Origin: Thermaerobacter sp. FW80 | GTDB taxonomy: Bacteria; Bacillota; Sulfobacillia; Thermaerobacterales; Thermaerobacteraceae | DNA length: 64,000 bases | Direction: 5' to 3' | NCBI RefSeq assembly: GCF_004634385.1 | Contig: NZ_CP037896.1 | Span: 1-64,000 of the forward strand | In this document: one piece after another, positions 14,557-42,250 of the stretch | Layout: each line of letters begins with the position of its first letter | Position numbering within the stretch: the first letter of the stretch is position 1 | Made by a program: the position numbers and the translations under genes | Notes under the pieces: generated by a model | Database searches by the model: none | Told to the model about the DNA's origin: nothing | The model's input: only the letters and a program-made list of their open reading frames with translations

Positions 14557-14720
14557 CGTTACCTGAAACATCGTCATCTGTTTCAGGCAGCCGATCCTCA
14601 CGGATCGACGGTGCCGGTCTTACCCGGCAATGAGCCGGTGCCGGCTTCCCGCTTCTTCCGGGACTGCCTGCTGGACAGCAGGTCTTACATCCCGTCCACG
14701 GGCGTTTAACGTCTCCGGGC
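14557..14720 (-). ncRNA. Candidate omega RNA at the tnpB 3' end
   Basis: TnpB guide RNAs are produced from the 3' end of tnpB and the transposon right end. On the minus strand this stretch shows successive hairpins: CCTGCTG/CAGCAGG, GATCC/GGATC, and CCTGAAACA/TGTTTCAGG (14562-14587) just before the element edge. The guide would then be read from the adjacent thermonuclease sequence (reverse complement of bases below 14557). Position and structure are seen; expression is inferred. Confidence 0.55.
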
Positions 14721-19634: not shown

Positions 19635-19677
19635 GAATGGAAAGGGAAAGCGCCGCACCGGGCCTGCGGGGGAAGCA

Positions 19678-20619
19678 TCACGCCCGCAACGCGATGACGG
19701 CGCACGCCAGGACGATGGCCATCGCCACGGTGCCGTAGAAGAGCCGGACGGCCCGCTCGATGTCGCTCGGTCCGGGCAGGGCCAGCCCCGCGCCCAACTT
19801 GTAGTGCCCGGCCTTCTCCAGTTCCACCCCCAGCGCACCGGCCATGGCGCTCATGGGATGACCGGCGTTGGGACTTGCCGTCTTGCCGGCGTCTTGCCGC
19901 CAGATGCTGAGAGCTCCCCGTGCATCCTCGCGGAGGCAGGCGGCCGCGAGTACCAGCAGGGCCGCGGTCAGCCGTGCGGGGATCAGGTTGGCCGCGTCGT
20001 CGGCTCGGGCCGCCGCCTTGCCCAGCCACTCGCGGGACGGATCACGGTAGCCCAGCATGGCGTCCGCGGTGTTGAGGAACCGGTACGCCAGCGCCCCGGG
20101 TAGGCCCGCGAGGACGTAGTAGAAGAGCGGCGCGACCACGCTGTCCGACGCGTTCTCGGCTACGGACTCGATCGTCGCTGCCGCCAGCCGGGGAGCATCC
20201 AGGCCGCGGGTGTCGCGGCTCACGAGGTGGTACCCCACCAGGCACCGGGCCTGGCACACATCGCCCGCGGCCAGGACCGCGTGCACCTGGCGGGCAATTT
20301 CCGCGAGCCGGCGTGCGGAGAACGTTGTCTTCAGCACCACTGCCGCGGCGACCCAGGCCAAGGCCCGAGGCATCGTGGCCAGGAGGCGCTCAGCCACCAG
20401 CCCGGCACCGGCTGCCGCCACGGCGCCCGCCACCACCACGGCGGCCCCGTACGCCAGCCGTCCGGGTGCCGAGGAAGGTGCGCGGCAGGATGCAGCCCCG
20501 ATCCCCGTCCCCATCCAGGCGACGGGATGCCACCGGTTGGGGGGCTCCCCCCACAGCGCGTCGAGGAGCAGAGCCAGCAGGAGGGGGACCACCCGGTCGG
20601 TAGCCGTCATCGGCTTCAC
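19678..20619 (-). CDS. cbiB: Adenosylcobinamide-phosphate synthase CbiB/CobD
   Basis: 313 residues, integral membrane protein with several hydrophobic segments. Family hallmarks are WGEPPNRWHPVAWMG, SRDTRGL, ESVAENASDSVVAPLFYY, NTADAMLGY, DDAANLIPARLTA and SPNAGHPMSAMAGALGV. It attaches the aminopropanol phosphate arm to cobyric acid. The GTG start at 20619 overlaps the cobT stop as GTGA, indicating translational coupling. Confidence 0.95.
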   Translation of the reverse strand: MKPMTATDRVVPLLLALLLDALWGEPPNRWHPVAWMGTGIGAASCRAPSSAPGRLAYGAAVVVAGAVAAAGAGLVAERLLATMPRALAWVAAAVVLKTTFSARRLAEIARQVHAVLAAGDVCQARCLVGYHLVSRDTRGLDAPRLAAATIESVAENASDSVVAPLFYYVLAGLPGALAYRFLNTADAMLGYRDPSREWLGKAAARADDAANLIPARLTAALLVLAAACLREDARGALSIWRQDAGKTASPNAGHPMSAMAGALGVELEKAGHYKLGAGLALPGPSDIERAVRLFYGTVAMAIVLACAVIALRA

Positions 20620-21812
20620 GCGCTCCCGGTTTCCAGCACGGATCGCAACGAGGCCATCTCCGTCATCACCCGCACCGCCGCCTCCACGAGGTGGAACGCG
20701 AGCACCGCGCCCGTCCCCTCGCCGAGACGGAGGCCGAGGTCGAGGCAGGGGCGGAGGCCCAGCCGTTCCAGGGCGACGCGGTGGGCCGGTTCGGCCGACA
20801 GGTGTCCGGCAATCAGATAGTGCCGGGTACCGGGTGCCAGGGCCTCGGCGACCAGGGCCGCGGCCCCCGCCACCACGCCGTCCAGGACCACCGGCAGCCG
20901 CAACGCGGCCGCACCCACGATCAGGCCGGCCAGGGCCGCGATTTCAAACCCGCCCACCTTGGCCAGTACGTCCAGGGCATCGGACGGGTCGGGGCCGTTC
21001 GTTTCCAAGGCCCGCCGCACGGCGTCCCGCTTCCGGGCCATTCCGGCCGCGTCGAGCCCCGTCCCCGGTCCGACGACCCGTTCCGGCGGGAGGCCGATCA
21101 AGGTGCTGACGACGGCGGCGCTCGCCGTGGTGTTGCCGATGCCGATCTCGCCCGTGGCCAGCAGCCCGAACCCCTCTGCGGCCAGATCCGCGGCGAGGCG
21201 GGCTCCGGCGGCCAGCGCCTGCCGGGCATCCTGGCGCGTCATGGCCGGTCCTCGCGTCATATTGGACGTTCCCGGGCGCACCCGGGCCCGTACGAAGCGG
21301 ACCCCCGCGGGTAGGAAATCAAACCGGCCAGGCTCGCCATCGGCCCCGCCACCTGCCCTACCGGCGGCAGAAGCGCCGTCGACGCCCGGGATCGGGCCCC
21401 GCACCCCCACGTCGACGCACACCACCGTCGCGCCGGCCTGGCGAGCCAGGACGTTGATGGCGGCCCTGCCCTCCAGGATTGTGCGGACCATCAAGGCGGT
21501 GACCTTCTGCGGATAGGCGCTGACCCCATCCTCGACGACGCCGTGATCAGCCGCCATCACGACCACCGCCTTGCGACCCAGGGTTGGCGGGACCCGCCCC
21601 GTCACCGCGGCAAGGCGAGCTCCCAGGTTTTCCAGCTCAGCCAGGCTGCCCGGCGGCTTGGCCAGCTCATCGAGCCGTGCCCGCGCCCGGGCTCCGGCCT
21701 CCTCGTCCGGCGGTGGGACGGTTACCGGCCGGCCGTCGCGCAACAACCCGGCCACGGTGTGCCCGGTCTCGGTCTCCCCGGTTAGGGGCTCGTAGCTGCG
21801 AACCTTTCGCAT
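20616..21812 (-). CDS. cobT: Nicotinate-nucleotide:DMB phosphoribosyltransferase CobT
   Basis: 398 residues; the family is about 350, the excess being the first 30 residues and a Gly/Ala insertion near GVDGASAAGRAGGG. Motifs: KPPGSLAELENLGARLA, VMAADHGVVEDGVSAYP, GEIGIGNTTASAA, KVGGFEIAALAGLI and GEGTGAVLAF with the catalytic Glu. It makes alpha-ribazole phosphate for the lower ligand of cobalamin. A GGGGGA ribosome site precedes the ATG. ISLre2 begins only 33 bases upstream, so the native promoter or upstream operon partner has been cut away. Confidence 0.95.
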   Translation of the reverse strand: MRKVRSYEPLTGETETGHTVAGLLRDGRPVTVPPPDEEAGARARARLDELAKPPGSLAELENLGARLAAVTGRVPPTLGRKAVVVMAADHGVVEDGVSAYPQKVTALMVRTILEGRAAINVLARQAGATVVCVDVGVRGPIPGVDGASAAGRAGGGADGEPGRFDFLPAGVRFVRARVRPGTSNMTRGPAMTRQDARQALAAGARLAADLAAEGFGLLATGEIGIGNTTASAAVVSTLIGLPPERVVGPGTGLDAAGMARKRDAVRRALETNGPDPSDALDVLAKVGGFEIAALAGLIVGAAALRLPVVLDGVVAGAAALVAEALAPGTRHYLIAGHLSAEPAHRVALERLGLRPCLDLGLRLGEGTGAVLAFHLVEAAVRVMTEMASLRSVLETGSA

Positions 21813-23461: not shown

Positions 23462-23535
23462 AGTCCCCGCCCCCTCTTCGGCTTGCGGACGGAACATACG
23501 TTTGGTATCCTGGGAAAAGGAGGATGATCGGGCCG

Positions 23536-25134
23536 ATGCAGGCGACCTTCCAGACGAAGATTCAAGACCGGTCGGTTTACCCGGCCCTGGACGCCCTCGC
23601 CGCCCTGTACGGTCGCCTGCTGCGCCGGTTGTTCGTCGATCTCTACGTGCGGAAGCGTCCCCTTGTCGAGTGCAAGCGGGAATCCATTGCTCGCTACGGC
23701 ATCACAGCCCGCTACTTCAACGCGCTGGCCACCGAACTCAAGGCCAAGGTGAAGGCGGCGGAGGAAGCCCATCGGCACCATCTGGCGCACCTGCGCGGGC
23801 AGATCCAATCCACCGAACGAGCCATCGCCAAGCTCCACAAGCAGGAGAAAGCCTTGGCCTCGGGCAAGGGGCGCTGGGCGACCCTTTCGCCCGAAGAGCG
23901 GGCGGCGCGTCGGCGTCGGGTCCGGTTTCGGCTGCACCAGAAGAAGCGGCGGCTGGCGATGCTGCGCGCCCGCCTGGAAGCGGCGGAAGCGCGGACGGGA
24001 TCGCCGCCGATTTGCTTTGGCTCGCGGCGCTTGTTCCATCGGCAGTTCCACCTGGAGGCGAATGGGTTCGCTTCCCACGACGCATGGCGCAAGGCATGGC
24101 GCGATGCCCGCAGCCAAAGCTTCTTCTGCCTCGGCTCCAAAGACGAGAGGAGCGGCAACCAGACGTGTTCGCTCTTGGGCGACCGCTTGCGCCTTCGGGT
24201 GCCCAACGCCCTGGCCGGCCGCTTTGGCCGGCATGTTTGGCTGCACGGCGTCCGTTTCCCCTATGGACAGGATGTCATCCTGGCGGCCCTCGCGTCCGGG
24301 CAAGCGATTTCCTACCGCTTTGTCCGGAAGAACAGCGCCTGGTATGTCTTCGCCACCACCGAACGGCCCGCGGCCCCGATCACGACATCGCGAAGGGCGG
24401 GCGCCCTTGGTGCCGATCTGAACCCCGACCGGCTGGCCGTGGCGGAGGTCGACCGCTTCGGCAACCCGGTGGCGGCGCGCGACATCCGACTTCCGCTCCA
24501 AGGCAAGCGCCGGGAGCAAGTGAAGGCCATCCTGGGCGATGCGGTGGCGGACCTGGTGGCATGGGCCAAGGGCGCCGGCAAGCCCATCGTGGTGGAGCAC
24601 CTGGACTTCCGGGAGAAGAAGACCCGTCTTCGAGAAGACGACAAGCGATACGCCCGCAAGTTGTCCGCTTTTGCTTACGGCAAATTTTACGCCCTGCTCA
24701 TGGCCCGGGCCGCCCGGGAAGGCGTGGAGGTGCTCCGCGTCAACCCGGCCTTCACCAGCGTGATCGGCAAAGTCAAGTTCATGGCCCGGTACGGGCTGTC
24801 GCCCCACGCGGCCGCGGCGGTGGCGATTGCCCGCCGGGGCCTGGGCTTTGGCGAGCGCTTGCGCTCCGGAACCGCCCGCCCTCTACCCGCGAGGAATCGA
24901 GGGCGGCACGTCTGGAGCGATTGGCGGCGCATCGCCCCGTCGGTGCGCGGCAAGCGGGCGCACCGGCTCTATGAGCGGTCCTCCGAGGACGCCCCAGGTC
25001 GGGGGGAACCCCGATCCACCCGGGCACCGGCGGCCTCAAGGCCGCACGGCCCCGGGTGCGATGGTCTGGCTTGGGGTCCGGGGTGCGATCCCCCGGCGCG
25101 AATCGTCGGGAGCACTGTTCGCCCGGCGTCATAG
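23536..25134 (+). CDS. tnpB: TnpB-related protein without zinc ribbon, copy 1
   Basis: 532 residues. Residues 60-150 are a charged helical region. The RuvC-like fold shows D294 in LGADLNPDRLAVAEV and E354 in IVVEHLDF. At the RuvC-III position the sequence is GLSPHAAAAVAIARRG, with His424 where active TnpB has Asp. No CxxC pair is present anywhere. I recall this as a separate, widespread TnpB-related family. It could be an altered nuclease, a binding-only protein or a distinct chemistry. The last 60 residues are Pro/Gly-rich and overlap a structured 3' end that probably belongs to an RNA. Confidence 0.8.
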   Translation: MQATFQTKIQDRSVYPALDALAALYGRLLRRLFVDLYVRKRPLVECKRESIARYGITARYFNALATELKAKVKAAEEAHRHHLAHLRGQIQSTERAIAKLHKQEKALASGKGRWATLSPEERAARRRRVRFRLHQKKRRLAMLRARLEAAEARTGSPPICFGSRRLFHRQFHLEANGFASHDAWRKAWRDARSQSFFCLGSKDERSGNQTCSLLGDRLRLRVPNALAGRFGRHVWLHGVRFPYGQDVILAALASGQAISYRFVRKNSAWYVFATTERPAAPITTSRRAGALGADLNPDRLAVAEVDRFGNPVAARDIRLPLQGKRREQVKAILGDAVADLVAWAKGAGKPIVVEHLDFREKKTRLREDDKRYARKLSAFAYGKFYALLMARAAREGVEVLRVNPAFTSVIGKVKFMARYGLSPHAAAAVAIARRGLGFGERLRSGTARPLPARNRGRHVWSDWRRIAPSVRGKRAHRLYERSSEDAPGRGEPRSTRAPAASRPHGPGCDGLAWGPGCDPPARIVGSTVRPAS

Positions 25135-25160
25135 GTGGATGCAATAAACGCCTATGTTTT
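24990..25160 (+). ncRNA. Candidate guide RNA at the TnpB-like 3' end, copy 1
   Basis: The nucleotide sequence here is strongly conserved with 39790-39957, including past the stop codon. It ends in a hairpin CATAGGTG/CGCCTATG (25130-25156, one mismatch) followed by TTTT. This matches the position where TnpB elements encode their guide RNA. Confidence 0.5.
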
Positions 25161-25168
25161 GAGGAACG

Positions 25169-25925
25169 GTGTTTCACCGGTTCCATCCGTGTGACCCGGT
25201 CGGCCCGCTCGATTACCTTGGACGGCCGTGGAGTTCACCACCCGCGTCACCCCCATGTGGATCTCGTACCCTTCCAACTCCGCACCGGCGCATTGGTCCC
25301 AGAAGCCGGACCCGCCGGGGGCCACATGCACTGACCGGCGGCGCGTGGTCTTGACGGGTTGCAGCTCCGCCCCTACCGGTAGGTAAGCGAGCCCCCTCAC
25401 CTCGCCAATGCTTGCCTCGGCCCCGCGGGGATCGCGGACGCGCAGACCCAGCATCTGGTACCCGGCGCACATGCCCATCAGCGACGCCTCCCCACCACCG
25501 CCCGGGCGATGGCCCGGTCCAAGCCGTTGCGAAACAGCCATACCAGGTCTTCCACGGTGCTTTTGGTTTCCGGCAGGATCACGGCATTGGACTGCCCGAG
25601 CTCGTCCGGCGACGCGACGTAGCGGACACGCACCCCCGGCTGGGGCGGGGCAGGCGCACCACGGCAAGGTCCAGGACCGCCGGTTCCCCCACCTCCCCGC
25701 GCCCGCCCCCGCTTCCCAGATTGCCTGCCCTCGCGCTGTCTTGCCGGGCATCCTCCAGGGCGAGGGAATCCTCCTCGTCCATCGCCAGCTCCCGATACGG
25801 TATAACGTCGACGACGGGCCGGCCCGTCCCCCTCCCCAGCCACTCAATTCCCGGAGCAACGCCGGGTCGCCGCGAAAGTTTTGATGTTGAACCCGGTCAC
25901 CCGCCGCCGTTGGGAGGGGGTAGCA
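25169..25925 (-). pseudogene. cobQ: Cobyric acid synthase CobQ, C-terminal remnant
   Basis: Minus-strand segments in different frames match the CobQ glutaminase half: [33 protein letters not shown], then in another frame MGMCAGYQMLGLRV with the catalytic Cys. At least two frameshifts separate them. The 3' end was lost to the TnpB element and the 5' side is cut by IS256 copy 2. This glutamine amidotransferase amidates four side chains of the corrin ring; the gene is dead here. Confidence 0.82.
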
Positions 25926-30908: not shown

Positions 30909-32432
30909 TCACCGTGGCGGGGCCGGCGACGATGCCAGCTGCTTCAGCGTTGCAGAGAGTACATGGACCGCGATGTTACAGGACTCGGACGGTGACCGCC
31001 GACTTGCTTTGCTGATCCGGTCGACGGCTTCCCACAAGCCGGGGTAGATCCGAATAAACAATCGGGTTCCTTCCTGATCGAGCCGCGGCCGCGCCTGCAC
31101 GCCAAAAAGATACAGCACTCGGCTCGCGCGATCGTCCCGCGGCGGCAACTCCGGCAGGGACGCCGTGGACGCGGCTTCGTGGAGCAAGAGCTCCAGGGCC
31201 ATCCCGAGGAGCTTGTACGCTTCCATGCGCGTCTCGGAGCGAAGCTGCTCAATGGTGGACCGGTATTCGGGAAGGAGGTAGACGCCAACGAACTGCGTGG
31301 CCCCAGCGTCCGTTGCACTGCGCCGCTCCATCCACCACCGGGCGCGTTCTCTAAGAAATTCCCCGGCACGCCGGCTCGGTCCCGTCCATTCGCGATGCGG
31401 CACCCACACAACCGCCCCCGGGTCCGGGATTTCCAGTGCCATCGCCCGCCCGGGGAATGCGATTCGAATCCTACCGTCGGCCTCCTGTGGAGGCGATGAC
31501 GCCCGTTTGCCGGCCCGCTCGTCACCGTCACCGTGCGACACCCCAGGCCTCCCTACTCTGACACCGGTCGGCGACCTTGCAGCGGCGTCGGACACCGTGT
31601 CTGATGGCGTTTCTGATACGGTTGTGCGTGATCCGGTGTGACCGTCATGAGGCGTGTCCATTGGCGCGTCCGACGATTCGTCCAACACTGGGTCGGCATC
31701 CGTTTGCTCAACCGTAGGTGCCACTGTGTTGTCTACCGTGTTCTCCGCGGAATTTGTCGCGGTGGTCGACGCTCTGTCACCAGCGGCGGTTAATGCCGTG
31801 GTTCCATCGGTGTCCAAAGATGTGTCGTATGCGGTGGTGTTCACGGTGTCCGATACCGTGTCATTCGGCGTGCCATCTGGCGCGTCAGATCCGGCTTCTA
31901 AATGCTGTACGGATTCACCCTGTAGGCGTCTTTCCCTAGCCGACACCGTTTCGCCAACTGTGGTCCCGGCCGTATCATCCGTCGTATCGGCCACCGCATC
32001 GAATGCCGTGTCGACTACAGTGTCTACACGGCTCTGCGAACCCGCATCAACATCTGTATCTCCATCCCTGGTTGCCGTGTGGGGAAGTGCCTCTCCCGAC
32101 CCCGACGCGTGGCCCTTTGGCACCACTGGTTCTGACGTATCCACCGCCGTGTCTTCCACGGTGGCCGACACAGTGTCTCGCTCGCGCAAAGAAGAATCGC
32201 TACTGGCCAGTCGCGCTACAAGCGCTTCCGCCTCACGTTGGAAATGCCGTACCATCAGGATGATTGCATGGCCGCGATTCGCTGGCTCGTAACCGTGTTC
32301 GCGGAGGAACGTCTCAAGCACCTCGTACGGAAGGGAAGCCAGCCGATCCTGCAAGTTTTCCCGAGCTACCTGTTGTCCCCGCCAGCTTCCCACGAGGCTC
32401 TTGATGCCGCTGCGCCGTCGCCGCGAACTCAT
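30909..32432 (-). CDS. ParA-linked Thr/Asp-rich protein with two RHH-like modules
   Basis: 507 residues. The ATG overlaps the parA stop as ATGA, so the two are co-translated. Residues 1-80 are basic then helical (LQDRLASLPYEVLETFLREH). Residues about 85-295 are a low-complexity linker full of DTV/DTA/TVSDT units. Two C-terminal segments look like ribbon-helix-helix folds: about 379-420 (TQFVGVYLLPEYRSTIEQL) and about 455-498 (TRLFIRIYPGLWEAVDRIS). ParA operons normally place a centromere-binding protein here, often RHH. I therefore propose a centromere-binding adaptor. No known family was recognised, and the RHH call is by eye. Confidence 0.55.
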   Translation of the reverse strand: MSSRRRRSGIKSLVGSWRGQQVARENLQDRLASLPYEVLETFLREHGYEPANRGHAIILMVRHFQREAEALVARLASSDSSLRERDTVSATVEDTAVDTSEPVVPKGHASGSGEALPHTATRDGDTDVDAGSQSRVDTVVDTAFDAVADTTDDTAGTTVGETVSARERRLQGESVQHLEAGSDAPDGTPNDTVSDTVNTTAYDTSLDTDGTTALTAAGDRASTTATNSAENTVDNTVAPTVEQTDADPVLDESSDAPMDTPHDGHTGSRTTVSETPSDTVSDAAARSPTGVRVGRPGVSHGDGDERAGKRASSPPQEADGRIRIAFPGRAMALEIPDPGAVVWVPHREWTGPSRRAGEFLRERARWWMERRSATDAGATQFVGVYLLPEYRSTIEQLRSETRMEAYKLLGMALELLLHEAASTASLPELPPRDDRASRVLYLFGVQARPRLDQEGTRLFIRIYPGLWEAVDRISKASRRSPSESCNIAVHVLSATLKQLASSPAPPR

Positions 32433-33586
32433 CCGACGACCTCCTTCTTCTGCGCTCCGCTACGCCCAATTCGTTCCACGCGCTCCAGGAACTCTTCGGC
32501 CAGCGCCAGGAAATCCTCGCTGGCCCGACTCTTCGGCGCATAGTCCAAGACGGACATCCCCTGATCTGTCGCCTCTGAAATCGCCACGTCCGACCGCAGC
32601 ATCGTCGTGAAGACCAGCGAGCCCTTCTTTTCCCGCACGGCCGCCGCAACCTCATCCCGCAGCCCGGCACGATGGAGGCGGTAGTTCAGCACGTACCCAA
32701 TGCACGGCGCATCATGCCGCGGGATGCGCAGCAGATCTTCGACAAGCTGCTCAAATGTATCGAGCCCCTGCAGCGCGAACGGCTCCGGTTCCAGCGGGAT
32801 GATGTACGCGTCGGCCGCCAAGAGACCGATCGTCGTCAGCGTTCCGGCGGAGGGCGGCGTGTCCAAAAGGACATAGTCAAAGGGTTCTTCTACAGTCAGA
32901 AGCTCGTTCAACCGCTCCCGCAGGGTCCCGTAGAACTGCCCCAGCACTTCTTCCATCGCTGACGCACCGGCCCGGATCTCGCCCGCCGCGATCTTGAGCA
33001 GCAGGACGTTGGCCGCGTGGTCAATCTCGTCGCCCGAGTCGTCCATCGGCGCGAGCCACAGACGCTCGTCCTCTGTGGCCGGCAGGATGATCTCCTTCAG
33101 CGGCCGGCCCGGTGCATCCGGTGCGAGCTGCCACAGATCCGCCACCGTCAGCTCATACCGGTTGAGCCCCGGCTCCTCTGCCGAAAACCCCAAGTGCCGG
33201 GTCGCATTGCCCTGCGTATCCAGATCGATCACCAGCACGCGGTCCCCCGTCGCCTTGGTGATGGCTCGTGCCAGGTTTACCGTGACCGTCGTCTTCCCGA
33301 CCCCACCCTTCCGATTGGCGACTGCGATGACCTTGCCCCGCTCGACGTTCCCGGTCTGCAAGAGCAACTGCCGCAGGGGCACCATTCCGGGCCCTTTGTG
33401 GCGCTCGATGGCTGCGAGCACCTCGTCCTCGTAGAACCGAGGCTCCCCTTTCGGGGTGCGAAACATCGAGATCCCGTACGCGGCCAGGTCGCCGGACTCG
33501 ATCCATCGGTAAATCGTCTGCCGGCTGACACCGAACAGCCGCGCTACGTCCGAAACCTTGATGGGCTTCCGTTTCCGATGATCCAT
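32429..33586 (-). CDS. parA: ParA partition ATPase with N-terminal HTH
   Basis: 385 residues from ATG at 33586, after GGGGGAGGG. Residues 8-50 are a MerR/excisionase-type HTH (VSDVARLFGVSRQTIYRWIE). The deviant Walker A is ANRKGGVGKTTV, followed by VLVIDLDTQGNATRHLG and DYVLLDTPPSAGTLT. Longer ParAs with an N-terminal DNA-binding domain (type Ia style) also repress their own operon. It is divergent from rep1-parB and is followed by the RHH-like gene. Confidence 0.93.
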   Translation of the reverse strand: MDHRKRKPIKVSDVARLFGVSRQTIYRWIESGDLAAYGISMFRTPKGEPRFYEDEVLAAIERHKGPGMVPLRQLLLQTGNVERGKVIAVANRKGGVGKTTVTVNLARAITKATGDRVLVIDLDTQGNATRHLGFSAEEPGLNRYELTVADLWQLAPDAPGRPLKEIILPATEDERLWLAPMDDSGDEIDHAANVLLLKIAAGEIRAGASAMEEVLGQFYGTLRERLNELLTVEEPFDYVLLDTPPSAGTLTTIGLLAADAYIIPLEPEPFALQGLDTFEQLVEDLLRIPRHDAPCIGYVLNYRLHRAGLRDEVAAAVREKKGSLVFTTMLRSDVAISEATDQGMSVLDYAPKSRASEDFLALAEEFLERVERIGRSGAQKKEVVG

Positions 33587-34127
33587 CTGGACCCTCCCCC
33601 CACGGGTGGAGCATTTCGCCGCCCAGGTCGTATTTCCTCCGAATGTTGCAAATGTGACAAACCGCGGCAGGATTCGGGCTCCCCGGTGGCGAATGGACAG
33701 CCAGCAGTTGGTTCTACTCCCTTCGGTTTGGCACGCGGTGGCGCGACCGCCCGTCGTGCCACCGCCCCTGCTTCGTCCGTGCCCGGATCGCACCCACCAT
33801 GCGATCCCGTCGACCATGGGGGGAGGAGGGGACGGACGCAAGCGACCGACAGCAAAACGGCCGGTTGCACCGCAACCGGCCGTACGCAAGGGGTGACCCG
33901 ACAGACCACCGAACGACGAATCGACAACGTGCCGCCCGCCTGGTGGGGGGACCAGGCGGTGCGGCCCGCATACCCGATCACCGCCGGGGACCGCCAGCGT
34001 GGAATCGGGCATCGATCCGCAACCGCCGCTTAAAACCGCAACTGCGGCGGTCTAGGGGTTCTTTCACTTGATTCGCGGTCGAGGTCCAGATTCCTGCAGG
34101 CGGCCCGCGCAGGAGGGAGGGACCCTT
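33587..34127. promoter_or_regulatory. Divergent parA / rep1 leader with three inverted repeats
   Basis: Three near-perfect hairpins lie on the rep1 leader side: 33857-33883 (11-bp arms ACGGCCGGTTG), 33936-33959 (9-bp arms CCGCCTGGT) and 34022-34051 (8-bp arms ACCGCCGC around TTAAAA). On the minus strand the first is followed by TTTTGC, like a weak terminator, so a short minus-strand RNA antisense to the rep1 leader is possible. No coding frame is convincing. Confidence 0.55.
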
Positions 34128-35273
34128 GTGCCGCCTGCCGGTCCGACCGAACTGCGTGACGGGCGTCGACGCCACTGGTTTTGGGCTCACAACGCCATCT
34201 GGGACGTGCCCGACCTCTCCGCACACGCCATCCTGGTCTACCTCTACCTCTGCCGCTGCGCCGACGCGGGCGGCACCTGCTGGCCGTCACGAAGCACCAT
34301 TGCCCGGGCGTGCCGAATCTCCAAGGACAGCGTCGACCGCGCCATCAAGCAGCTCTGCGAGCGGGGCCTCCTCATCAAAGAATCCCGCCAGGGCCCCGAC
34401 GGCGCCTATGCCTCCAACCTATATACGATTCTCGATCCGCCGGCTCCGAACGAGGCGCCGGAGCCTCCCCCTAGCCGCACACAGCGGCCACCCCTAGCCG
34501 CTCTCAGCGGCTACCCCCGGCCGCAGGGTGCGGCCACCCTAGCCGCAGGCAACGGCTACCCTAGCCGCAACGAGCGGCCCGAAGGACAACCCATTGAAGG
34601 ACAACCGAAGGAACAACATCATCCGGTCTCCGTACCAAGGGCCGCACGCCGCGATGATGATGTCACCTTGGCACTCTCTGTTCTGACTGCGGCCAGAACA
34701 CAAGTCGCTGCGAGCGCTGAATCTGCGACATCGGATGCAGCCGCCGCTCACCTCGCTGCAGCGTACCGCCGGACCACGGGCGGCACGCTGACCGAAGGCG
34801 AAGCACGCCAAATTGTGGAACGCTATGGCTTAGCCTATGCGCTGGAAAAGCTCGAGCTCGTAGCGTGGCAACAAAGCCAGGGCGGTTTTGAGCGGGGCCC
34901 GAAGGCGTACTATCTCGCTGCCCTCAAGGGCGACTGGCGCGTCGAGCCGCACGTCCCAGCACGGATTCAAAAACGGCAGGAAGCGGAGCGTCGGCAGGAG
35001 GAAGAGGCCCGGAAGAGGGAAGAGGAACGCCAGCGCATCGAAGCCGAAAAGCGTCTGGCGGCCGCCCTTGACGCCTTGATCGACACGCTCCCCGTGGAGG
35101 AGCGTGTCCGCCTGGAGGCGGAAGCGGAGGCGCGGGTACGGCAGCGCACCAGCGACAAGGTGCGCTCGATGATTCCGGTGCATCGGCTGCTGGTACAAGT
35201 GGAGATGCGGGCACTCGCCCGGAAGCGGTACGGCAACCGCTTGCAGGATCCTGGTCTGGAGGCAGGCTCATGA
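34128..35273 (+). CDS. Replication initiator 1 (HTH + DnaD-like) with internal iterons
   Basis: 381 residues from GTG after AGGAGGGAGGGACCCTT. Residues about 15-85 are a winged helix of the HTH_36 type (LSAHAILVYLYLCRCADAGG, STIARACRISKDSVDRAIKQ). The region encoded by the repeats at 34471-34582 is a Pro/Ala-rich linker. A DnaD-like helical part follows (EARQIVERYGLAYALEKL, GPKAYYLAALKGDWR), then a charged coiled coil and EMRALARKRYGN at the end. It has the same plan as the protein at 37003, so the two are paralogous plasmid initiators. It is co-translated with parB. Confidence 0.72.
   Translation: MPPAGPTELRDGRRRHWFWAHNAIWDVPDLSAHAILVYLYLCRCADAGGTCWPSRSTIARACRISKDSVDRAIKQLCERGLLIKESRQGPDGAYASNLYTILDPPAPNEAPEPPPSRTQRPPLAALSGYPRPQGAATLAAGNGYPSRNERPEGQPIEGQPKEQHHPVSVPRAARRDDDVTLALSVLTAARTQVAASAESATSDAAAAHLAAAYRRTTGGTLTEGEARQIVERYGLAYALEKLELVAWQQSQGGFERGPKAYYLAALKGDWRVEPHVPARIQKRQEAERRQEEEARKREEERQRIEAEKRLAAALDALIDTLPVEERVRLEAEAEARVRQRTSDKVRSMIPVHRLLVQVEMRALARKRYGNRLQDPGLEAGS
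34471..34582 (+). repeat. Five palindromic iterons inside rep1
   Basis: Units of the form CTAGCCGC-N5-GCGGCTAC begin at 34471, 34494, 34517, 34539 and 34561 (spacing 23, 23, 22, 22). Each contains an inverted repeat (AGCCGC/GCGGCT with variants). The spacing is not a multiple of three, so each unit is read in a different frame, which argues for selection on DNA and not protein. In RepA_N-type plasmids of Gram-positive bacteria the origin also lies within the rep gene. Confidence 0.8.
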
Positions 35274-36151
35274 GCCGCAAACGCGGAGGTCTCGGCCGAG
35301 GTCTCGAAGGGCTGTTGCGCGGCATGGACTCGGAAGGCCACGGGATGGTCCAGGAAGTGCCTGTGGCGGCCATCCGTCCGAATCCCTACCAGCCCCGGAA
35401 GCATTTTGACGAGGCGGCGCTCGACGAGCTCGCTGCCTCGATCCGTCGCCGCGGGGTCCTTCAACCGGTGCAGGTCGTGCGCGAAGGTGACGGCTACATC
35501 CTCATCGCCGGCGAGCGCCGGTGGCGGGCCGCGCGCAAGGCCGGCCTTGCAACCATCCCGGCCGTCGTACGCGACCTGGAACCCGCGGCCTGGACCGAGG
35601 TGGCGCTCATTGAAAACCTCCAACGCGAAGACCTCAACCCGATTGAGGAGGCCGAAGCTTACCGCCTGCTGCACGAAGAATACGGGCTCACTCAGGAAGC
35701 GATCGCCGAGCGGGTCGGCAAGAGCCGGCCGCACATCGCCAACATGATGCGTCTTCTCCAGTTGATGCCCGCGGTTCAGGATGCCGTCCGGACCGGCCAA
35801 CTCAGCATCGGCCATGCAAAGATCCTCGCCGGTCTTCCGCCCGAGCTCCAGCTCGAGCTTGCCGCAGCCGCGATCGAAAAGGGATGGACGGTTCGCCATC
35901 TCGAACGGCAGCTGGCCGCACGATCCGCCTTTGGACCGCGCCGTGAGACTGCATCCGCCGCCGCGCGTGAATCGGGCCTCGAGCCGTTGATCCGGAAGCT
36001 CAAGGAGGCCCTGGGCGCCGAGGTGACCTGTCGGCCGCGCGGTGCAGGCTGGCGACTTGTCATCGATATCCCGGACCGTGCGATGCTTGAACGCCTGCTG
36101 GAAGTCTTGCAGGACCACAGCCCCGAGGATCGAGCGACGGGCCCCGGATGA
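35270..36151 (+). CDS. parB: ParB/Spo0J-family partition protein
   Basis: 293 residues. ATG at 35270 overlaps the rep1 stop (ATGA). It begins KRGGLGRGLEGLL, then VPVAAIRPNPYQPRKHFDE and the CTP-binding GERRWRAARKAGL and ENLQREDLNPIEEA motifs. The HTH (LTQEAIAERVGKSRPHIANM) is at about 140-165, and a C-terminal dimerisation domain follows. ParB clamps load at parS and work with ParA. No full canonical parS (TGTTTCACGTGAAACA) was found in the window. Confidence 0.95.
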   Translation: MSRKRGGLGRGLEGLLRGMDSEGHGMVQEVPVAAIRPNPYQPRKHFDEAALDELAASIRRRGVLQPVQVVREGDGYILIAGERRWRAARKAGLATIPAVVRDLEPAAWTEVALIENLQREDLNPIEEAEAYRLLHEEYGLTQEAIAERVGKSRPHIANMMRLLQLMPAVQDAVRTGQLSIGHAKILAGLPPELQLELAAAAIEKGWTVRHLERQLAARSAFGPRRETASAAARESGLEPLIRKLKEALGAEVTCRPRGAGWRLVIDIPDRAMLERLLEVLQDHSPEDRATGPG

Positions 36152-37002: not shown

Positions 37003-38019
37003 TTACAGGACCGCAAGCTCGTCGCGGAGCCTGGCCATTCGCCCGGCCGGCCGTCGCTTCGGTGGCGGCGCGTAGCCGCCGTCGAGGGCGGCAAGGTAGT
37101 ACGCAAGCGGCGGGTGCAAGCCGCCCCGCCGCAGGCGCCAGGCCAACGTTCGCAGCTGGCGCATGCACGCCACGAAGCCGTACTTGGCCAGCAGCTGTCG
37201 CGCCTGGGTCATCGGGATGGCGTCGGAGTGCGCCACCCGGTGCTTTTGGATGACCGCCCGGTAGGCGCGCTGGAGAACACGTGCAAAACGATCGGCATCA
37301 TCGTCGTCGTCAGTTCGTTCGTGATCGGCCGGGGCGGCGGGCTCGGGGGCCGCAGCGGCTTCACGGTGCGCGGCAGCTGGAAAGACGACGACGATGTTTT
37401 TTTGTTTTTCCAGTCTCGTTTTTTCTTTTTGCGTTCCTGCGCAGGAACAGCGACACCGCTGTTCCTGTCCAGGAACAGCGACGCCGGTTCCCTGTTCCGG
37501 ATCGGGAACAGCGACGGCGGGGCCGGAGGGGATGCCGAGCCGCTGGGCGACGTCCTCCGACCACCAGCTCGGCAGCAGCTCGGCAGGGACCGGTCGCGGC
37601 AGCGCCCCGCGGCGAACCGCGGCGTGGAATTCCTCCTCGGGCAACGGGTCGTTGACCCAGTACGTGTACTTCACCGCGGTGACGCGGTTGCCGCTTCGCC
37701 CCTCCACGGTGATGCGCTCGACCTGGATGTCGATGAGGCCCCAGGCCACGAGCTGGAGTTCGATCTGCTTGAGGCGGTCGGCACCGATCCCGCCGGCCTT
37801 TTTCAGGAACCGCTTGGTGGAGAAGGCGCGTTCCGCGAAGGTGTGGCGGGCATCCCGGTTGACAAAGCGGAGGAGCTGGGCGTAATAGCCTACACCTTGG
37901 AAACCGCCGATGTGCGGCATGTAGAGGTCGAGCAGCTCGTGGTAGAGGACCGAAAAACCGGCCCGGCGCTGCGGGCCCGGGCGGTAGACGACCTGGGCGA
38001 ATTCGGCCTGGACGGCCAT
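37003..38019 (-). CDS. Replication initiator 2 (winged helix + DnaD-like), truncated
   Basis: 338 residues from ATG at 38019 after a strong AAGGAGGGG site. The N-terminal winged helix is at about 20-105 (FSVLYHELLDLYMPHIGGFQ, RFLKKAGGIGADRLKQIELQ). The middle is encoded by an AT-rich tract and palindromic repeats, and a DnaD-like helical part follows (MTQARQLLAKYGFVACMRQL, PPLAYYLAALDGGY). It is a paralogue of rep1. Expression looks tightly controlled: the Shine-Dalgarno is in a hairpin and an antisense RNA unit faces the leader. Its C-terminal 73 residues lie beyond a TAA. Confidence 0.72.
   Translation of the reverse strand: MAVQAEFAQVVYRPGPQRRAGFSVLYHELLDLYMPHIGGFQGVGYYAQLLRFVNRDARHTFAERAFSTKRFLKKAGGIGADRLKQIELQLVAWGLIDIQVERITVEGRSGNRVTAVKYTYWVNDPLPEEEFHAAVRRGALPRPVPAELLPSWWSEDVAQRLGIPSGPAVAVPDPEQGTGVAVPGQEQRCRCSCAGTQKEKTRLEKQKNIVVVFPAAAHREAAAAPEPAAPADHERTDDDDDADRFARVLQRAYRAVIQKHRVAHSDAIPMTQARQLLAKYGFVACMRQLRTLAWRLRRGGLHPPLAYYLAALDGGYAPPPKRRPAGRMARLRDELAVL
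37395..37520. repeat. Palindromic iterons plus AT-rich tract inside rep2
   Basis: Three 16-bp palindromes at 37433-37448 (GTTCCTGCGCAGGAAC), 37461-37476 (GTTCCTGTCCAGGAAC) and 37494-37509 (GTTCCGGATCGGGAAC) are each followed by AGCGAC. Spacing is 28 and 33 bases, so not frame-preserving. Directly next to them, 37395-37432 is a T-rich run, striking in this GC-rich plasmid and suited to strand opening. Together these look like an in-gene replication origin. Confidence 0.78.
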
Positions 38020-38021
38020 CG

Positions 38022-38066
38022 CGACCCCTCCTTGGGACAAAAAATTCCTTGACCCATCGGAGGGGC
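38022..38066 (-). promoter_or_regulatory. Hairpin sequestering the rep2 ribosome site
   Basis: On the minus strand CCCCTCC (complement of 38059-38065) can pair with GGAGGGG (complement of 38025-38031), which contains the rep2 Shine-Dalgarno. A nested GGG/CCC pair lies inside. Pairing would block initiation at 38019. Confidence 0.6.
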
Positions 38067-38078
38067 TCGTTTTAAAAT
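38049..38078 (+). promoter_or_regulatory. Promoter for antisense RNA facing rep2
   Basis: TTGACC (38049-38054) and TAAAAT (38073-38078), spaced 18 bases, give a good sigma-A-type promoter on the plus strand, inside the rep2 leader and opposite to rep2. Confidence 0.6.
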
Positions 38079-38084
38079 AGCGCA

Positions 38085-38151
38085 CGGGTGTGTGAGCCCG
38101 ACTCCGATGGAGCGCTCCCCGATCTGCGGCCACAGATCGGGGTCTTTTTTT
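38085..38151 (+). ncRNA. Predicted antisense RNA (about 67 nt) against the rep2 leader
   Basis: Bounded by the promoter at 38049-38078 and the terminator ending at 38151. No coding frame fits. If the rep2 transcript starts upstream of 38151 the RNA is fully complementary to its leader, the layout of copy-number control RNAs in many plasmids. Confidence 0.55.
38117..38151 (+). terminator. Rho-independent terminator of the antisense RNA
   Basis: Perfect 10-bp stem CCCCGATCTG/CAGATCGGGG with a 6-base loop, followed by TCTTTTTTT. Confidence 0.85.
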
Positions 38152-38193: not shown

Positions 38194-38332
38194 CTTCGGG
38201 GTTCGTAACTGCTGACCAAACTATCGTCAAATCTTATCAGACGTAGGCGAAACATTTCACCTCCGCCTCCTGTTCCTCTTTCGTGTATGGAACAGGCGTT
38301 TGGTATGATGAGAGAGGGAGGACACGCGGGCC

Positions 38333-39931
38333 ATGCAGGCGACCTTTCAGACGAAGATTCAAGACCGGTCGGTTTACCCGGCGCTGGACGCCATCGCCGC
38401 ACTGTACGGTCGCCTGCTGCGCCGGTTATTTGTCGATGTCTATGTTCACAATCGTCCCCTTGTTGAGTGCAAGCGGGAATACATTGCCCACTACGGAATC
38501 ACAGCTCGCCACTTCAATGCGCTGGCCATCGAACTCAAGGCCAAGGTAAAGGCGGCGGAGGAAGCCCATCGGCACCATCTGGTGAATCTGCGCGGGCAGA
38601 TTCAATCCACCGAACGAGCGATTGCCAAGCTCCAAAAGCAGGAGAAAGCCTTGGCATCGGGCAAGGGCCGCTGGGCCGCCCTGCCGCCCGAAGAGCGGGC
38701 GGAGCGTCGCCGTCGGGTCCGCTTTCGGCTGCACCAGAAGCAACGGCGACTGGCGATGCTTCGCGCCCGCCTTGAAACGGCGGAAGCCCGGACGGGATTG
38801 CCGCCGGTTTGCTTTGGTTCTCGGCGTTTGTTTCACCGGCAGTTCCACCTTGAAGAGAATGGGTTTGCTTCTCACGACGAATGGCGCAAGGCATGGCGCG
38901 ATGCCCGCAGCCAAAGCTTCTTCTGCATCGGATCAAAGGGCGAAATGAGCGGGAATTTGAATTGCTCGCTCATTGCCGGGTCCTTGCGCCTTCGCGTGCC
39001 AAACGCCTTGGCCGCTCGTTTTGGTCGCTGCATTTGGATTCACGGTGTCCGCTTCCCCTACGGGGATGATGTGATTTCGCGTGCCATCGCAACCGGGCAA
39101 GCGATTTCCTACCGCTTTGTCCGTAAGCGCGGTGTGTGGTATGTGTTCGCCACCACTGAACGGCCAGCGGCCCCGATCACGACATCGCGGATGGCTGGCG
39201 CCCTTGGCGCGGATCTGAACCCCGACCGGCTGGCCGTGGCGGAGGTGGACCGCTTCGGCAACCCGGTGGCGGCGCGCGACATCCGGTTTCAGCTTCAAGG
39301 CAAGCGCCGCGAGCAGGTGAAGGCCATCCTGGGCGATGCGGTGGCGGACCTGGTGGCATGGGCCAAGGGCGCCGGCAAGCCCATCGTGGTGGAGCACCTG
39401 GACTTCCGGGAGAAGAAGGCCCGTCTTCGAGAAGACGACAAGCGCTACGCCCGGAAGTTGTCCGCGTTTGCTTACGGCAAATTTTCCGCCCTGCTCATGG
39501 CCCGGGCCGCCCGGGAAGGCGTGGAAGTGATCCGCGTCAACCCGGCCTTCACCAGCGTGATTGGCAAGGTCAAGTTTATGGCCCGGTACGGGCTGTCGCC
39601 CCACGCGGCGGCGGCGGTGGCGATTGCCCGCCGGGGCCTTCGTTTGGGCGAGCGCTTGCGCTCTGGAACCGCCCGCCCTCTACCCGCGAGGAATCGAGGG
39701 CGGCACGTCTGGAGCGATTGGCGGCGCGTCGCCCCGTCGGTGCGCGGCAAGCTGGCGCACCGGCTTTATGAGCGGTCCTCCGAGGACGCCCCAGGTCGGG
39801 GAGAACCCCGATCCACCCTGGCACCGGCGGCCCCAAGGCCGCACGGCCCGGGGTGCGATGGTCTGGCTTGGGGTCCGGGGTGCGATCCCCCGGCGCGAAT
39901 CGTCGGGAGCGCTGTTCGCCCGGCGTCATAG
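38333..39931 (+). CDS. tnpB: TnpB-related protein without zinc ribbon, copy 2
   Basis: 532 residues, most of them shared with the copy at 23536. It keeps the Asp of LGADLNPDRLAVAEV, the Glu of IVVEHLDF and the His of GLSPHAAAAVAIARRG, so the same unusual site is conserved in both copies despite sequence drift. This suggests the His is functional and not a chance mutation. The ATG follows GAGGGAGGACACGCGGGCC. Confidence 0.8.
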   Translation: MQATFQTKIQDRSVYPALDAIAALYGRLLRRLFVDVYVHNRPLVECKREYIAHYGITARHFNALAIELKAKVKAAEEAHRHHLVNLRGQIQSTERAIAKLQKQEKALASGKGRWAALPPEERAERRRRVRFRLHQKQRRLAMLRARLETAEARTGLPPVCFGSRRLFHRQFHLEENGFASHDEWRKAWRDARSQSFFCIGSKGEMSGNLNCSLIAGSLRLRVPNALAARFGRCIWIHGVRFPYGDDVISRAIATGQAISYRFVRKRGVWYVFATTERPAAPITTSRMAGALGADLNPDRLAVAEVDRFGNPVAARDIRFQLQGKRREQVKAILGDAVADLVAWAKGAGKPIVVEHLDFREKKARLREDDKRYARKLSAFAYGKFSALLMARAAREGVEVIRVNPAFTSVIGKVKFMARYGLSPHAAAAVAIARRGLRLGERLRSGTARPLPARNRGRHVWSDWRRVAPSVRGKLAHRLYERSSEDAPGRGEPRSTLAPAAPRPHGPGCDGLAWGPGCDPPARIVGSAVRPAS

Positions 39932-39957
39932 GCAGATGTAATAAATGCCTATGTTTT
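39790..39957 (+). ncRNA. Candidate guide RNA at the TnpB-like 3' end, copy 2
   Basis: Conserved with 24990-25160. It ends in a perfect hairpin CATAGGCA/TGCCTATG (39927-39953) followed by TTTTT. The differences between copies turn the one mismatched stem pair into a matched one. Confidence 0.5.
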
Positions 39958-40043
39958 TAGGAACGGCGGCAGGAAGAAGAACCTCTCTGGCGTATACCAT
40001 AGCCTGAGAGGCGGTCGCCCCCACCGACCGCCATCACCCACCG

Positions 40044-40071
40044 GGGCCGTGCTAGCACCACGGCCCTTTTT
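40044..40071 (+). terminator. Rho-independent terminator
   Basis: GGGCCGTG/CACGGCCC stem with a 7-base loop and TTTTT. A second hairpin without a T-tract (GGCGGTCG/CGACCGCC, 40010-40032) lies just before it. It insulates the repeat array from the TnpB element. Confidence 0.75.
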
Positions 40072-40229
40072 CTCTTCCCCTTTTCGGTGGGCGGAAGTTC
40101 CAATTTCAGCCGTTGCGTCTTTTCGCCGCCAATTTCGTGGGTGGGGGCCGACTGCGCATCCCCACGGGACGGGACCTCGCCGAGCGCAGGCAGCCGGATT
40201 CTACTGTCCGAGCGCCGCAACGGCTGCGC

Positions 40230-40491
40230 GGGTCCCAAAGTGGGCCCAAAGTGGGACCACTTTGGGCCCACTTTGGGCCCATTTGAAGCCGAAGCTTGCC
40301 CGTTCGCACGCTTTCTCCCGGCGGCACCGGGCCCAGTCTGGGCCCACGTTGGGCCCAGACTGGGGCCACTTTGGGCCCACTATGGGCCCAAACTGCGACA
40401 TCGCGCGCGTTGCCGGACCGTTCCCCATGGGCATCCTGGGCCCATTCTGGGCCCAGATTGGCCCCACAATGGGCCCACTTTGGGCCCAGTC
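40230..40491. repeat. Three clusters of 11-bp TGGGCCCA repeats (putative centromere)
   Basis: Units TGGGCCCANNN start at 40230, 40241, 40252, 40263, 40274; then 40328, 40339, 40350, 40361, 40372, 40383; then 40437, 40448, 40459, 40470, 40481. Within clusters the pitch is exactly 11 bp. The step from the last unit of one cluster to the first of the next is 54 bp both times (43-bp spacers). Eleven of 16 units are exact TGGGCCCA. Helically phased 11-bp repeats in clusters are the hallmark of centromeres bound by RHH proteins, such as R1 parC with ParR. An origin or oriT is the alternative. Confidence 0.9.
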
Positions 40492-41032
40492 AGCTTCACC
40501 CCTGCGGCCCGTGACGCGAAGGGTCCCTTCGGCAACCCGGCTGTGAACCCACGGTGGACAAACCGCGGCGTTCATGTTGATTTTTTTCGGCATTTGTGAT
40601 CCTGGCCCGGAAGCGAATCCAGCCCGTTGTGGCGCGGCCTCGCTTGCCCTAAAATTCTGCCGAATCCACGCATTGAATCCATGTTCCTCGGTGGAGCCGT
40701 ACAACCCCTATGAAAAAATTGCGCAATGCAAATCCCGCTTCGTGCTATGCGTTACAAGGGTTCGACGAAATAAAATTCAGCGCGAACAGCGTAATCTTTG
40801 CATGAGTCAACTTTCAAATCAGCAATTGTTTCATTTTTTTGGGGAAAGGGTGCATCGAGCGAAGGGCCGTACGACAAGGGAATACGCCGATCGCTCGGAC
40901 GTCTTTGTTCCGGCTTTCCGGCTTGTGGATAAGTGGCGTGCTTTATACATCTGGAGCCCGGAATTTTCGGGTTCGGCCCGGCGTTGGCCCCCGGCCCACG
41001 CCGGCCGCAAAGGCGAGAGGGAGGCTTGGGCG
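40492..41032. other. AT-rich region between the repeat array and the replication-relaxation gene
   Basis: From about 40565 to 40860 the base composition drops sharply in GC relative to the plasmid (runs such as GATTTTTTTCGG, ATGAAAAAATTG, TTTCATTTTTTTGG). It is open in one plus-strand frame but that frame has no recognisable protein features before the ATG at 41033. It may be a promoter region, a DNA-unwinding element or a transfer origin. Confidence 0.5.
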
Positions 41033-42250
41033 ATGGCGTGGCAAAGCCTGTTGCGGATTCCCGAACCGATCCCGCCGTCCGTGACGTCTCGAACCGCTGC
41101 CGCCGCGCTCGTTGTACTGGACCGCCTCGCCGGAGCGAGCCGGGATCAAATTGCGGCCTTGACCGGTTCGGGAAGCGCTGGCGCATACCGGGCCCTGTCC
41201 AGCCTGGCCCGGGACGGCCTGGTCCTGGCCCCGCCGCGCGGCCGGGGCGAGGCGTTGTGGCGGCTTACGAGGGCGGGGCGAACCTGGGTGAGTCGGCTGC
41301 TGCCTGACGGTTACGTGTGGCCGGACCCGCCTGGACGGGGGAGGGGCGAGAACCTCCAGCACCGCCGGATGGTGGGCGACGTGCTGGTCGAATTGGCCCG
41401 GCGATATCCGGCATGGCCCTGGGTCTTCGCGTTCCGCTCGCACGGGCGCGGTGCGTTGAGCACGTATGGCGTGGTCTATGATCCGGACGCACGGGTGGAT
41501 CTGCCGCGGGGGCAGCTGCTGATCGAAGTCGACCGGGGGACGATGCGCCGGCGGGGGCTTGAGGCGAAGTTTTACCGCCTGCGCGAGGTCCTCGATTACG
41601 GCGGTTACGGCTTGCAGGCGCCGCGGCGGCTTCTGTTCGTTCTGCACACGCCCAGTGCGGGCCGGATCCGGCTCATTCAGGAGCTGGCCACGACGTACCT
41701 GGAGCCGTATCTCATCGCCCCGCCGGCAGGGCAGCAGGACGTGCTGGCGCTGGACGTGTGGGTCGGGACCTTGGGGGAGGTCATCGACCGGTTTTCGCAA
41801 GAGGCGGCGTACTGGCTGGACCAGCCCGGCCCGGACGGGCGCGTGTCGCCCACAGCGCGTGTGCCCCACATGGGAGTGGCCGAGCTCGTGCTGGATGCGT
41901 TGACCGCTGCGGGAGTTCGGGGTTTGCACCTGGCCATGGGACGGGCGCCGGTGTTCGCGTGGCGCCAGCCGGGGATTCTCCGGGACGACAAGCAGGTTTT
42001 GCTGGTGCTTGACGGGCGGCGGTCAGCTGCCGTGGGCGCATGGGCCCGGTATCTTGAGCGCGCGTGCGCGGAGTGGGAGGAGCGGACGAACCGCCCGGCG
42101 CGGGGCCTGATCCTGCTGAGTCGCCCGGAAGACGGCTGGCAGGTGACGACGCCCCGGGTGTTCTGGACGACGCCCGATGCGTTGCATCCGCAGGGCGGCG
42201 TACGGTCGGCCGACGGGCGGCTGCAGCCGTTGACGGCCGTGTTCCCGTAA
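41033..42250 (+). CDS. Replication-relaxation family protein
   Basis: 405 residues from ATG at 41033 (GAGGGAGGCTTGGGCG before it). Residues about 20-95 are a winged helix (VVLDRLAGASRDQIAALTGS, RALSSLARDGLVLAP, LWRLTRAGRTW). The central part has the Replic_Relax signature YDPDARVDLP followed by LLIEVDRGTMRRRGLEAKF. The C-terminal 200 residues are less conserved (ELVLDALTAAGVRGLHLA). Family members occur on Gram-positive plasmids and integrative elements and are thought to act in replication or transfer initiation. The upstream repeat array and AT-rich island make it the likely DNA-binding partner, or a neighbour, of that locus. Confidence 0.75.
   Translation: MAWQSLLRIPEPIPPSVTSRTAAAALVVLDRLAGASRDQIAALTGSGSAGAYRALSSLARDGLVLAPPRGRGEALWRLTRAGRTWVSRLLPDGYVWPDPPGRGRGENLQHRRMVGDVLVELARRYPAWPWVFAFRSHGRGALSTYGVVYDPDARVDLPRGQLLIEVDRGTMRRRGLEAKFYRLREVLDYGGYGLQAPRRLLFVLHTPSAGRIRLIQELATTYLEPYLIAPPAGQQDVLALDVWVGTLGEVIDRFSQEAAYWLDQPGPDGRVSPTARVPHMGVAELVLDALTAAGVRGLHLAMGRAPVFAWRQPGILRDDKQVLLVLDGRRSAAVGAWARYLERACAEWEERTNRPARGLILLSRPEDGWQVTTPRVFWTTPDALHPQGGVRSADGRLQPLTAVFP

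Follow-up and report, generated by a model that had tools for sequence, protein, structure and literature searches.

A helically phased, three-block palindrome array on a ParA plasmid of Thermaerobacter sp. FW80: a candidate partition site

The plasmid and the surroundings of the array

The stretch of DNA analyzed here (the window, 64,000 nucleotides) comprises bases 1–64000 of a 77,620-bp contig. The two ends of the contig overlap by 25.9 kb, and bases 51679–77620 match bases 1–25945 at 99.9% identity. The simplest reading of this overlap is a circular replicon of about 51.7 kb on which the array is present once, the terminal repeat probably reflecting an untrimmed circular assembly. This repeat also accounts for most of the apparent gene duplications in the window. 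Contig 3 (8,456 bp) likewise shows a terminal repeat, of 1,570 bp. The plasmid also encodes a 1119-aa KAP-family NTPase together with cobalamin-biosynthesis-type genes (5467–8826 and 18486–21812), and the sole Rfam match in the window is Transposase-2 RNA (RF03015) at 14586–14655, beside a transposase region.

The array at 40230–40491 lies in non-coding DNA between the end of an IS605/TnpB element (39966) and the best start of a Replic_Relax gene (41033). No other tandem repeat on the plasmid is as strong, and of the top three it alone is non-coding. The second and third strongest arrays are located inside genes, one with 23-bp repeats at 34468 in the HTH_36 Rep gene and one with 28-bp repeats at 37433 in the gene of a 376-aa protein. 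No non-coding repeat array other than that at 40230–40491 was found on the plasmid. The 376-aa protein (37003–38133, minus strand, likely start 38019) belongs to no known family, and the 28-bp repeats inside its gene (37433–37486) contain a 16-bp palindrome, GTTCCTGCGCAGGAAC. The IS605-type TnpB element (38263–39966, plus strand, NCBIfam TIGR01766) lies between this gene and the array, and a second copy is present at 23467–25169. Comparison of its copies sets the right end of the element at 39966, and we rejected the array as part of it. We also rejected the array as coding sequence; the interval 39931–41033 is without any ORF having coding signal. With the IS605 element removed, the array would lie in a non-coding gap of roughly 1 kb that separates the 376-aa gene from the Replic_Relax gene. 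This gap also contains the most AT-rich 100-bp stretch of the plasmid (40746–40850, 62% AT), a candidate DNA-unwinding or promoter region, and the sole perfect DnaA box of the plasmid, TTATCCACA, on the minus strand at 40924–40932.

Geometry and conservation of the array

The array consists of 16 units in blocks of five, six and five. Block 1 (40230–40284) includes five TGGGCCCA-like 8-bp palindromes starting at 40230, 40241, 40252, 40263 and 40274. The six units of block 2 (40328–40393) start at 40328, 40339, 40350, 40361, 40372 and 40383, and the five units of block 3 (40437–40491) start at 40437, 40448, 40459, 40470 and 40481, with the final 8-mer ending at 40488. The pitch is exactly 11 bp inside every block, and the start-to-start distance across block borders is 54 bp. 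Spacer 1 (40285–40327) and spacer 2 (40394–40436) are identical in length (43 bp) and unrelated in sequence, with identity at only 17 of 43 positions. The sequence-only reading had described these units, blocks, pitch and spacers, and both direct reading and shuffling bear it out. Exact TGGGCCCA is found in 11 of the 16 units, and the variants are GGGTCCCA, TGGGACCA, CGGGCCCA, TGGGGCCA and TGGCCCCA. In dinucleotide-shuffled versions of the whole window, TGGGCCCA appears 2.2 times on average and 9 times at most, compared with the 11 exact units in the array alone. The degenerate four-unit pattern KGGNNCCM has six matches in the window and none in 100 shuffles. When pairs of units were searched in the host genome with two mismatches allowed, all matches fell inside the array except for one chromosomal pair.

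Conservation within the units is uneven. All 16 units keep the GG, the CC and the final A, and slight variation is seen at the two central bases and the first base of the 8-mer. The conserved part, described earlier as a GGGCCC core, is in fact (T)GG-NN-CCA. The word equals its own reverse complement, which leaves the array without direction. Departures from the column majority amount to 6 of 128 letters in the 8-mers, compared with 25 of 48 in the 3-bp linkers (Fisher p = 5.9e-12). The words have stayed fixed while the linkers drifted, which argues that the words are under selection. This is the pattern expected of protein-binding words under selection and not of recent slippage. A functionless minisatellite is accordingly extremely improbable, even if some of the loci found elsewhere with the same word (L018, L028 and L034, see below) look like simple tandem expansions. 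Slippage would give the opposite of what is seen here, where diverged linkers separate fixed words and the spacers are equal in length yet unrelated.

Partition and replication genes of the plasmid

ParA of this plasmid is an ATPase of 385 aa, counted from its Shine-Dalgarno start (32429–33586, minus strand). It matches AAA_31 (E = 6e-34) and carries an N-terminal HTH_17 domain (E = 1.7e-9). The earlier claim of a ParA-type rather than a ParM-type plasmid holds in its first half, and for the second half, no ParM actin-like ATPase with an adjacent ParR was recognized among the plasmid proteins scanned. The end of parA is overlapped by 4 bp by the gene of a 507-aa protein (30909–32432, minus strand), a candidate centromere-binding protein. 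This protein has a long Thr/Asp-rich middle and two weak C-terminal ribbon-helix-helix (RHH) signals. One C-terminal segment, searched alone, matches Pfam Antitox_RHH with E = 0.0018 and the second matches the Arc-like repressor phrog_3431 with E = 0.019, both below the curated cut-offs. A strand-helix-helix pattern can be seen by eye in both segments. Two single-sequence structure predictions of the C-terminus have pLDDT values of 38 and 61; they are of low confidence and disagree with each other. From its RHH signals, the C-terminal part may adopt an RHH fold. A search of 154 genomes of the class for relatives of the 507-aa protein returned only the protein itself and low-score matches to its N-terminal and middle parts, and its C-terminal part has no match in viral contigs. 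No homologues of the array region or of the Replic_Relax, 507-aa and 376-aa proteins were present in the plasmid collection. The array is about 6.6 kb away from parA. Upstream of the par operon (33560–34140) there is no repeat array, and the parA promoter has no TGGNNCCA pair with two mismatches allowed per pair.

The replication initiator of the plasmid is an HTH_36 Rep protein (34128–35273, plus strand; HTH_36 E = 1.5e-16, phrog_270 E = 1e-25), whose gene contains five 23-bp inverted-repeat iterons (34468–34579). Three Alicyclobacillus plasmids, reached via the Rep protein, share the order parA, overlapping ORF and HTH_36 rep. Their ORF overlapping parA encodes 152–178 aa, of which the N-terminus looks disordered and the C-terminus RHH-like, and a homologue of this small ORF is annotated as 'ribbon-helix-helix domain-containing protein'. 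Profile comparison of the 507-aa segments with these small proteins gave a best E of 0.0064 at 6% probability for one segment and none for the other. The three Alicyclobacillus rep genes have 21–22 bp repeats just behind the HTH region. Since iterons are situated inside rep both here and in these three plasmids, Rep probably finds the origin within its own gene, and the array is not needed for supplying Rep iterons. No TGGNNCCA array was found in the examined par intergenic regions of the syntenic Alicyclobacillus plasmids.

A Spo0J/Noc-type ParB of 293 aa (35270–36151, plus strand) is also encoded on the plasmid. Thus, an HTH-containing ParA and an HTH-type ParB, both type Ia ParABS features, are present. 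The array could then be the parS of this ParB, since no canonical parS or Noc site was found on the plasmid: no 16-mer lies within three mismatches of parS or four of Noc, and the closest parS-like site has four mismatches. A divergent parS may still be present. The half-sites of the F-plasmid SopB site, such as TGGGACC, also resemble the array word. Nevertheless, we regard this assignment as very improbable. In its recognition helix, this ParB is almost the same as B. subtilis Spo0J (GKSRPHIANM versus GKSRPHIANH), which predicts a canonical parS, and ParB sites of about 16 bp are too long for every 8-bp word to be occupied at a spacing of 11 bp.

The gene next downstream of the array encodes a 405-aa Replic_Relax family protein with an N-terminal winged HTH (41033–42250, plus strand; PF13814, E = 1.6e-7, 32.1 bits against a cut-off of 25.3). 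Its start was picked by the Shine-Dalgarno sequence and coding signal. Both this position and the winged-HTH N-terminus would fit an array that serves this protein, either as an operator or as a DNA-processing or transfer site comparable to the R388 stbDRs next to oriT. At another Replic_Relax gene (L053/L063), about five repeats with 11-bp pitch and a different core are found directly upstream, at a level reached in about 1 of 100 shuffles. In the 30 kb of pDESACI.01 examined, the two strongest repeat arrays directly follow a Replic_Relax gene; these are large 14–15 bp tandem arrays (L082, 9317–9638). We consider such a role rather unlikely, however. The 542 bp from the end of the array to the start codon is far for an operator, the other loci tested have no comparable upstream array, and no conjugation genes were recognized among the plasmid proteins scanned. 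A general link between Replic_Relax and 11-bp arrays is not claimed; it is clearly seen in 1 of 10 other loci tested. Homologues of this protein were found neither in 60 relative genomes nor in viral contigs. At L061 (1453–2733), another Replic_Relax protein has a C-terminal end that looks RHH-like by eye, and Pfam gives the Replic_Relax domain only.

Related arrays and a possible role in partition

A search of 85,000 genomes for TGGNNCCA-like units, four in a row at a pitch of 11 bp, gave 28 stretches. In viral contigs, a looser pattern of four units matched 12 stretches and one of three units matched 24. These scans report exact matches to the given patterns, and arrays with other cores fall outside them. 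No array with three blocks of five or six units was seen among the stretches of these scans. In four unrelated bacteria, TGGNNCCA arrays overlap the start of a small RHH-type gene or lie directly upstream, at most about 20 bp from it. These genes are FitA-like RHH by Pfam at L013, L014 and L025 (E 4e-13 to 7e-9), and the one at L021 looks RHH-like by eye. The arrays have at least four TGGNNCCA units at 11-bp pitch (L013, 6164–6204; L014, 2004–2066; L025, 5610–5650; L021, 1299–1339) and are probably autoregulatory operators. Other TGGNNCCA arrays are located inside genes that PHROGs assigns to replication initiation or DnaD-like helicase loaders (L009, L036, L037, L039, L042, L044, L045 and L047). 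Among these, L009 and L036 are prophage-like, the others come from the first viral scan, and the carrier ORF of L047 has a weak replication PHROG match, while L041 is a repeat of L039. Arrays at L090, L098 and L103 seem by eye to lie in initiator-type genes likewise. The remaining TGGNNCCA loci are in varied or unclear places, some of them upstream of integrase-like genes, and L018, L028 and L034 are near-perfect TGGNNCCA runs. An AT-rich tract with a period of about 5 bp adjoins the arrays at L009 (6441–6481), L012 (233–273), L036 (508–548), L039 (7879–7930) and L042 (5775–5826); those of L009, L036, L039 and L042 are within phage-type initiator or helicase-loader genes. It is possible that arrays with such a tract form a family of phage replication origins. 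The word class appears to mark multi-site docking arrays, and whether such an array is a centromere, an operator or an origin does not follow from the word alone. A literature search by motif string found no description of TGGNNCCA at 11-bp pitch as a docking design.

These phage initiator cases, together with the AT-rich stretch and the DnaA box, make an origin or copy-control site the strongest rival to a partition function. The array would then be a set of iterons of a second origin or a copy-control site, in which an initiator or copy-control protein coats the blocks, the AT-rich stretch melts and DnaA assists. The plasmid reaches its highest AT content, over both 100 and 200 bp, at 255–435 bp downstream of the array, where its one perfect DnaA box also lies, and the roughly 1-kb gap left without the IS605 element also fits. 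The 11-bp TGGNNCCA arrays inside initiator and DnaD-type helicase-loader genes of viral and prophage-like loci, several of them adjoined by the AT-rich tract of about 5-bp period, point the same way. On balance, we find this reading unlikely. A higher AT content is general in non-coding DNA, each phage array is one block within coding sequence, and the HTH_36 Rep has its own 23-bp iterons in its gene, as do three related rep genes in the same arrangement. Known initiator iterons are longer, about 17–22 bp, and sixteen short palindromes in three blocks are more centromere-like.

The repeat of R1 parC is 11 bp long. In R1 parC, two sets of five such short direct repeats are present and each repeat is bound by one dimer of the RHH protein ParR (PMC4949242, PMC5016525). 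Like this type II site, our array groups its short iterons into more than one cluster, with a pitch of one helical turn. However, the R1 sets flank the parM promoter and serve an actin-like motor, while the array has three blocks, a perfectly palindromic core and a ParA, and it is far from the par operon, unlike R1 parC. In pSM19035, the omega repeats are 7-bp non-palindromic heptads. This plasmid has a ParA-type motor and an RHH protein that binds three parS sites, not all of them beside the par genes (PMC5016525), and thus sets a precedent for three iteron blocks on a ParA-type plasmid. The three pSM19035 sites overlap three different promoters, though, and omega is small compared with the 507-aa candidate here. 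R388 stbDRs consist of two sets, each of five 9-bp repeats with 2 bp between them, which gives a pitch of 11, and plasmid stability needs them (PMC3098194). The array shares this pitch and the sets of five, but the two R388 sets surround the stb promoter next to oriT, and no stbA was recognized here. The FitA-type antitoxin and phage initiator loci have the same word class and exact 11-bp pitch as the plasmid array. They differ from it as single blocks, usually of 4–6 units, that overlap the gene or its start. TubR, the binder of the type III site tubC, has a winged-HTH fold. The tubC sites of pBtoxis and pBsph are direct repeats in two or three TubR-bound blocks (PMC5016525); their repeat core is unlike that of the array, and no TubZ was recognized among the scanned plasmid proteins.

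We propose, with a probability of roughly 45%, that the array is a centromere-like partition site of the type known from pSM19035, R1 and R388, with RHH dimers coating it. One TGG-NN-CCA palindrome would be the docking site for one RHH dimer. With one helical turn from site to site, dimers would be stacked on the same face of the DNA, in three runs (5, 6 and 5). The three runs and the two 43-bp spacers may then fold into a single superhelical nucleoprotein body, which would be passed to the ParA ATPase so that sister plasmids are moved apart. As the binder, we consider the C-terminal part of the 507-aa protein from the parA operon most likely, and this protein would touch ParA through its long flexible part. 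The sequence-only reading had proposed a phased multi-dimer site on a ParA plasmid, bound by the RHH-like protein encoded with ParA or by the replication-relaxation protein. The phased site on a ParA plasmid is supported, and the two proteins are candidate binders.

Several features favor a partition site. The 16 units share five invariant positions, the linkers have drifted and the spacers are equal in length with unrelated sequence. Rep has its own iterons, and no other non-coding array was found on the plasmid. The occurrence of TGGNNCCA at 11-bp pitch beside RHH genes in four unrelated bacteria is suggestive, as are the RHH signals of the 507-aa protein and the synteny of parA, RHH-like ORF and HTH_36 rep in three Alicyclobacillus plasmids, and the architecture matches R1 parC, R388 stbDRs and pSM19035. 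Against it stand the distance of about 6.6 kb from parA, the lack of a TGGNNCCA pair at the parA promoter, the RHH calls below curated cut-offs with low-confidence, disagreeing structure predictions, the weak profile comparison, the lack of TGGNNCCA arrays in the par intergenic regions examined in the syntenic plasmids, and the phased TGGNNCCA arrays within replication-initiator genes. In addition, the searches yielded no relative of the 507-aa protein or of the array that would allow a comparison. The N-terminal HTH of ParA also counts against it, a feature that type Ib ParAs are without. The type Ib centromere is usually upstream of the par operon (PMC5016525). With an HTH on ParA and a centromere that is not upstream of the operon, we do not class the system as type Ib; as for an RHH protein in the parA operon, the 507-aa ORF overlaps parA and its RHH signals are sub-threshold. 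Doubtful as it is, a hybrid partition module can be imagined, in which a type-Ia-like HTH ParA, a 507-aa partner with two C-terminal RHH motifs and a long disordered middle, and a distant three-block palindromic centromere work together on a plasmid that also carries ParB.

Should the array prove to be a centromere, a ParA motor would here be paired with a multi-block, helically phased centromere like that of R1 and with a candidate binding protein of very large size. The plasmid would then also offer a clear case for testing how the number and spacing of blocks affect the segregation complex. More broadly, our survey suggests that TGGNNCCA at 11-bp pitch may be a recurring docking design in mobile elements, used in the operators of RHH genes and in phage initiator genes.
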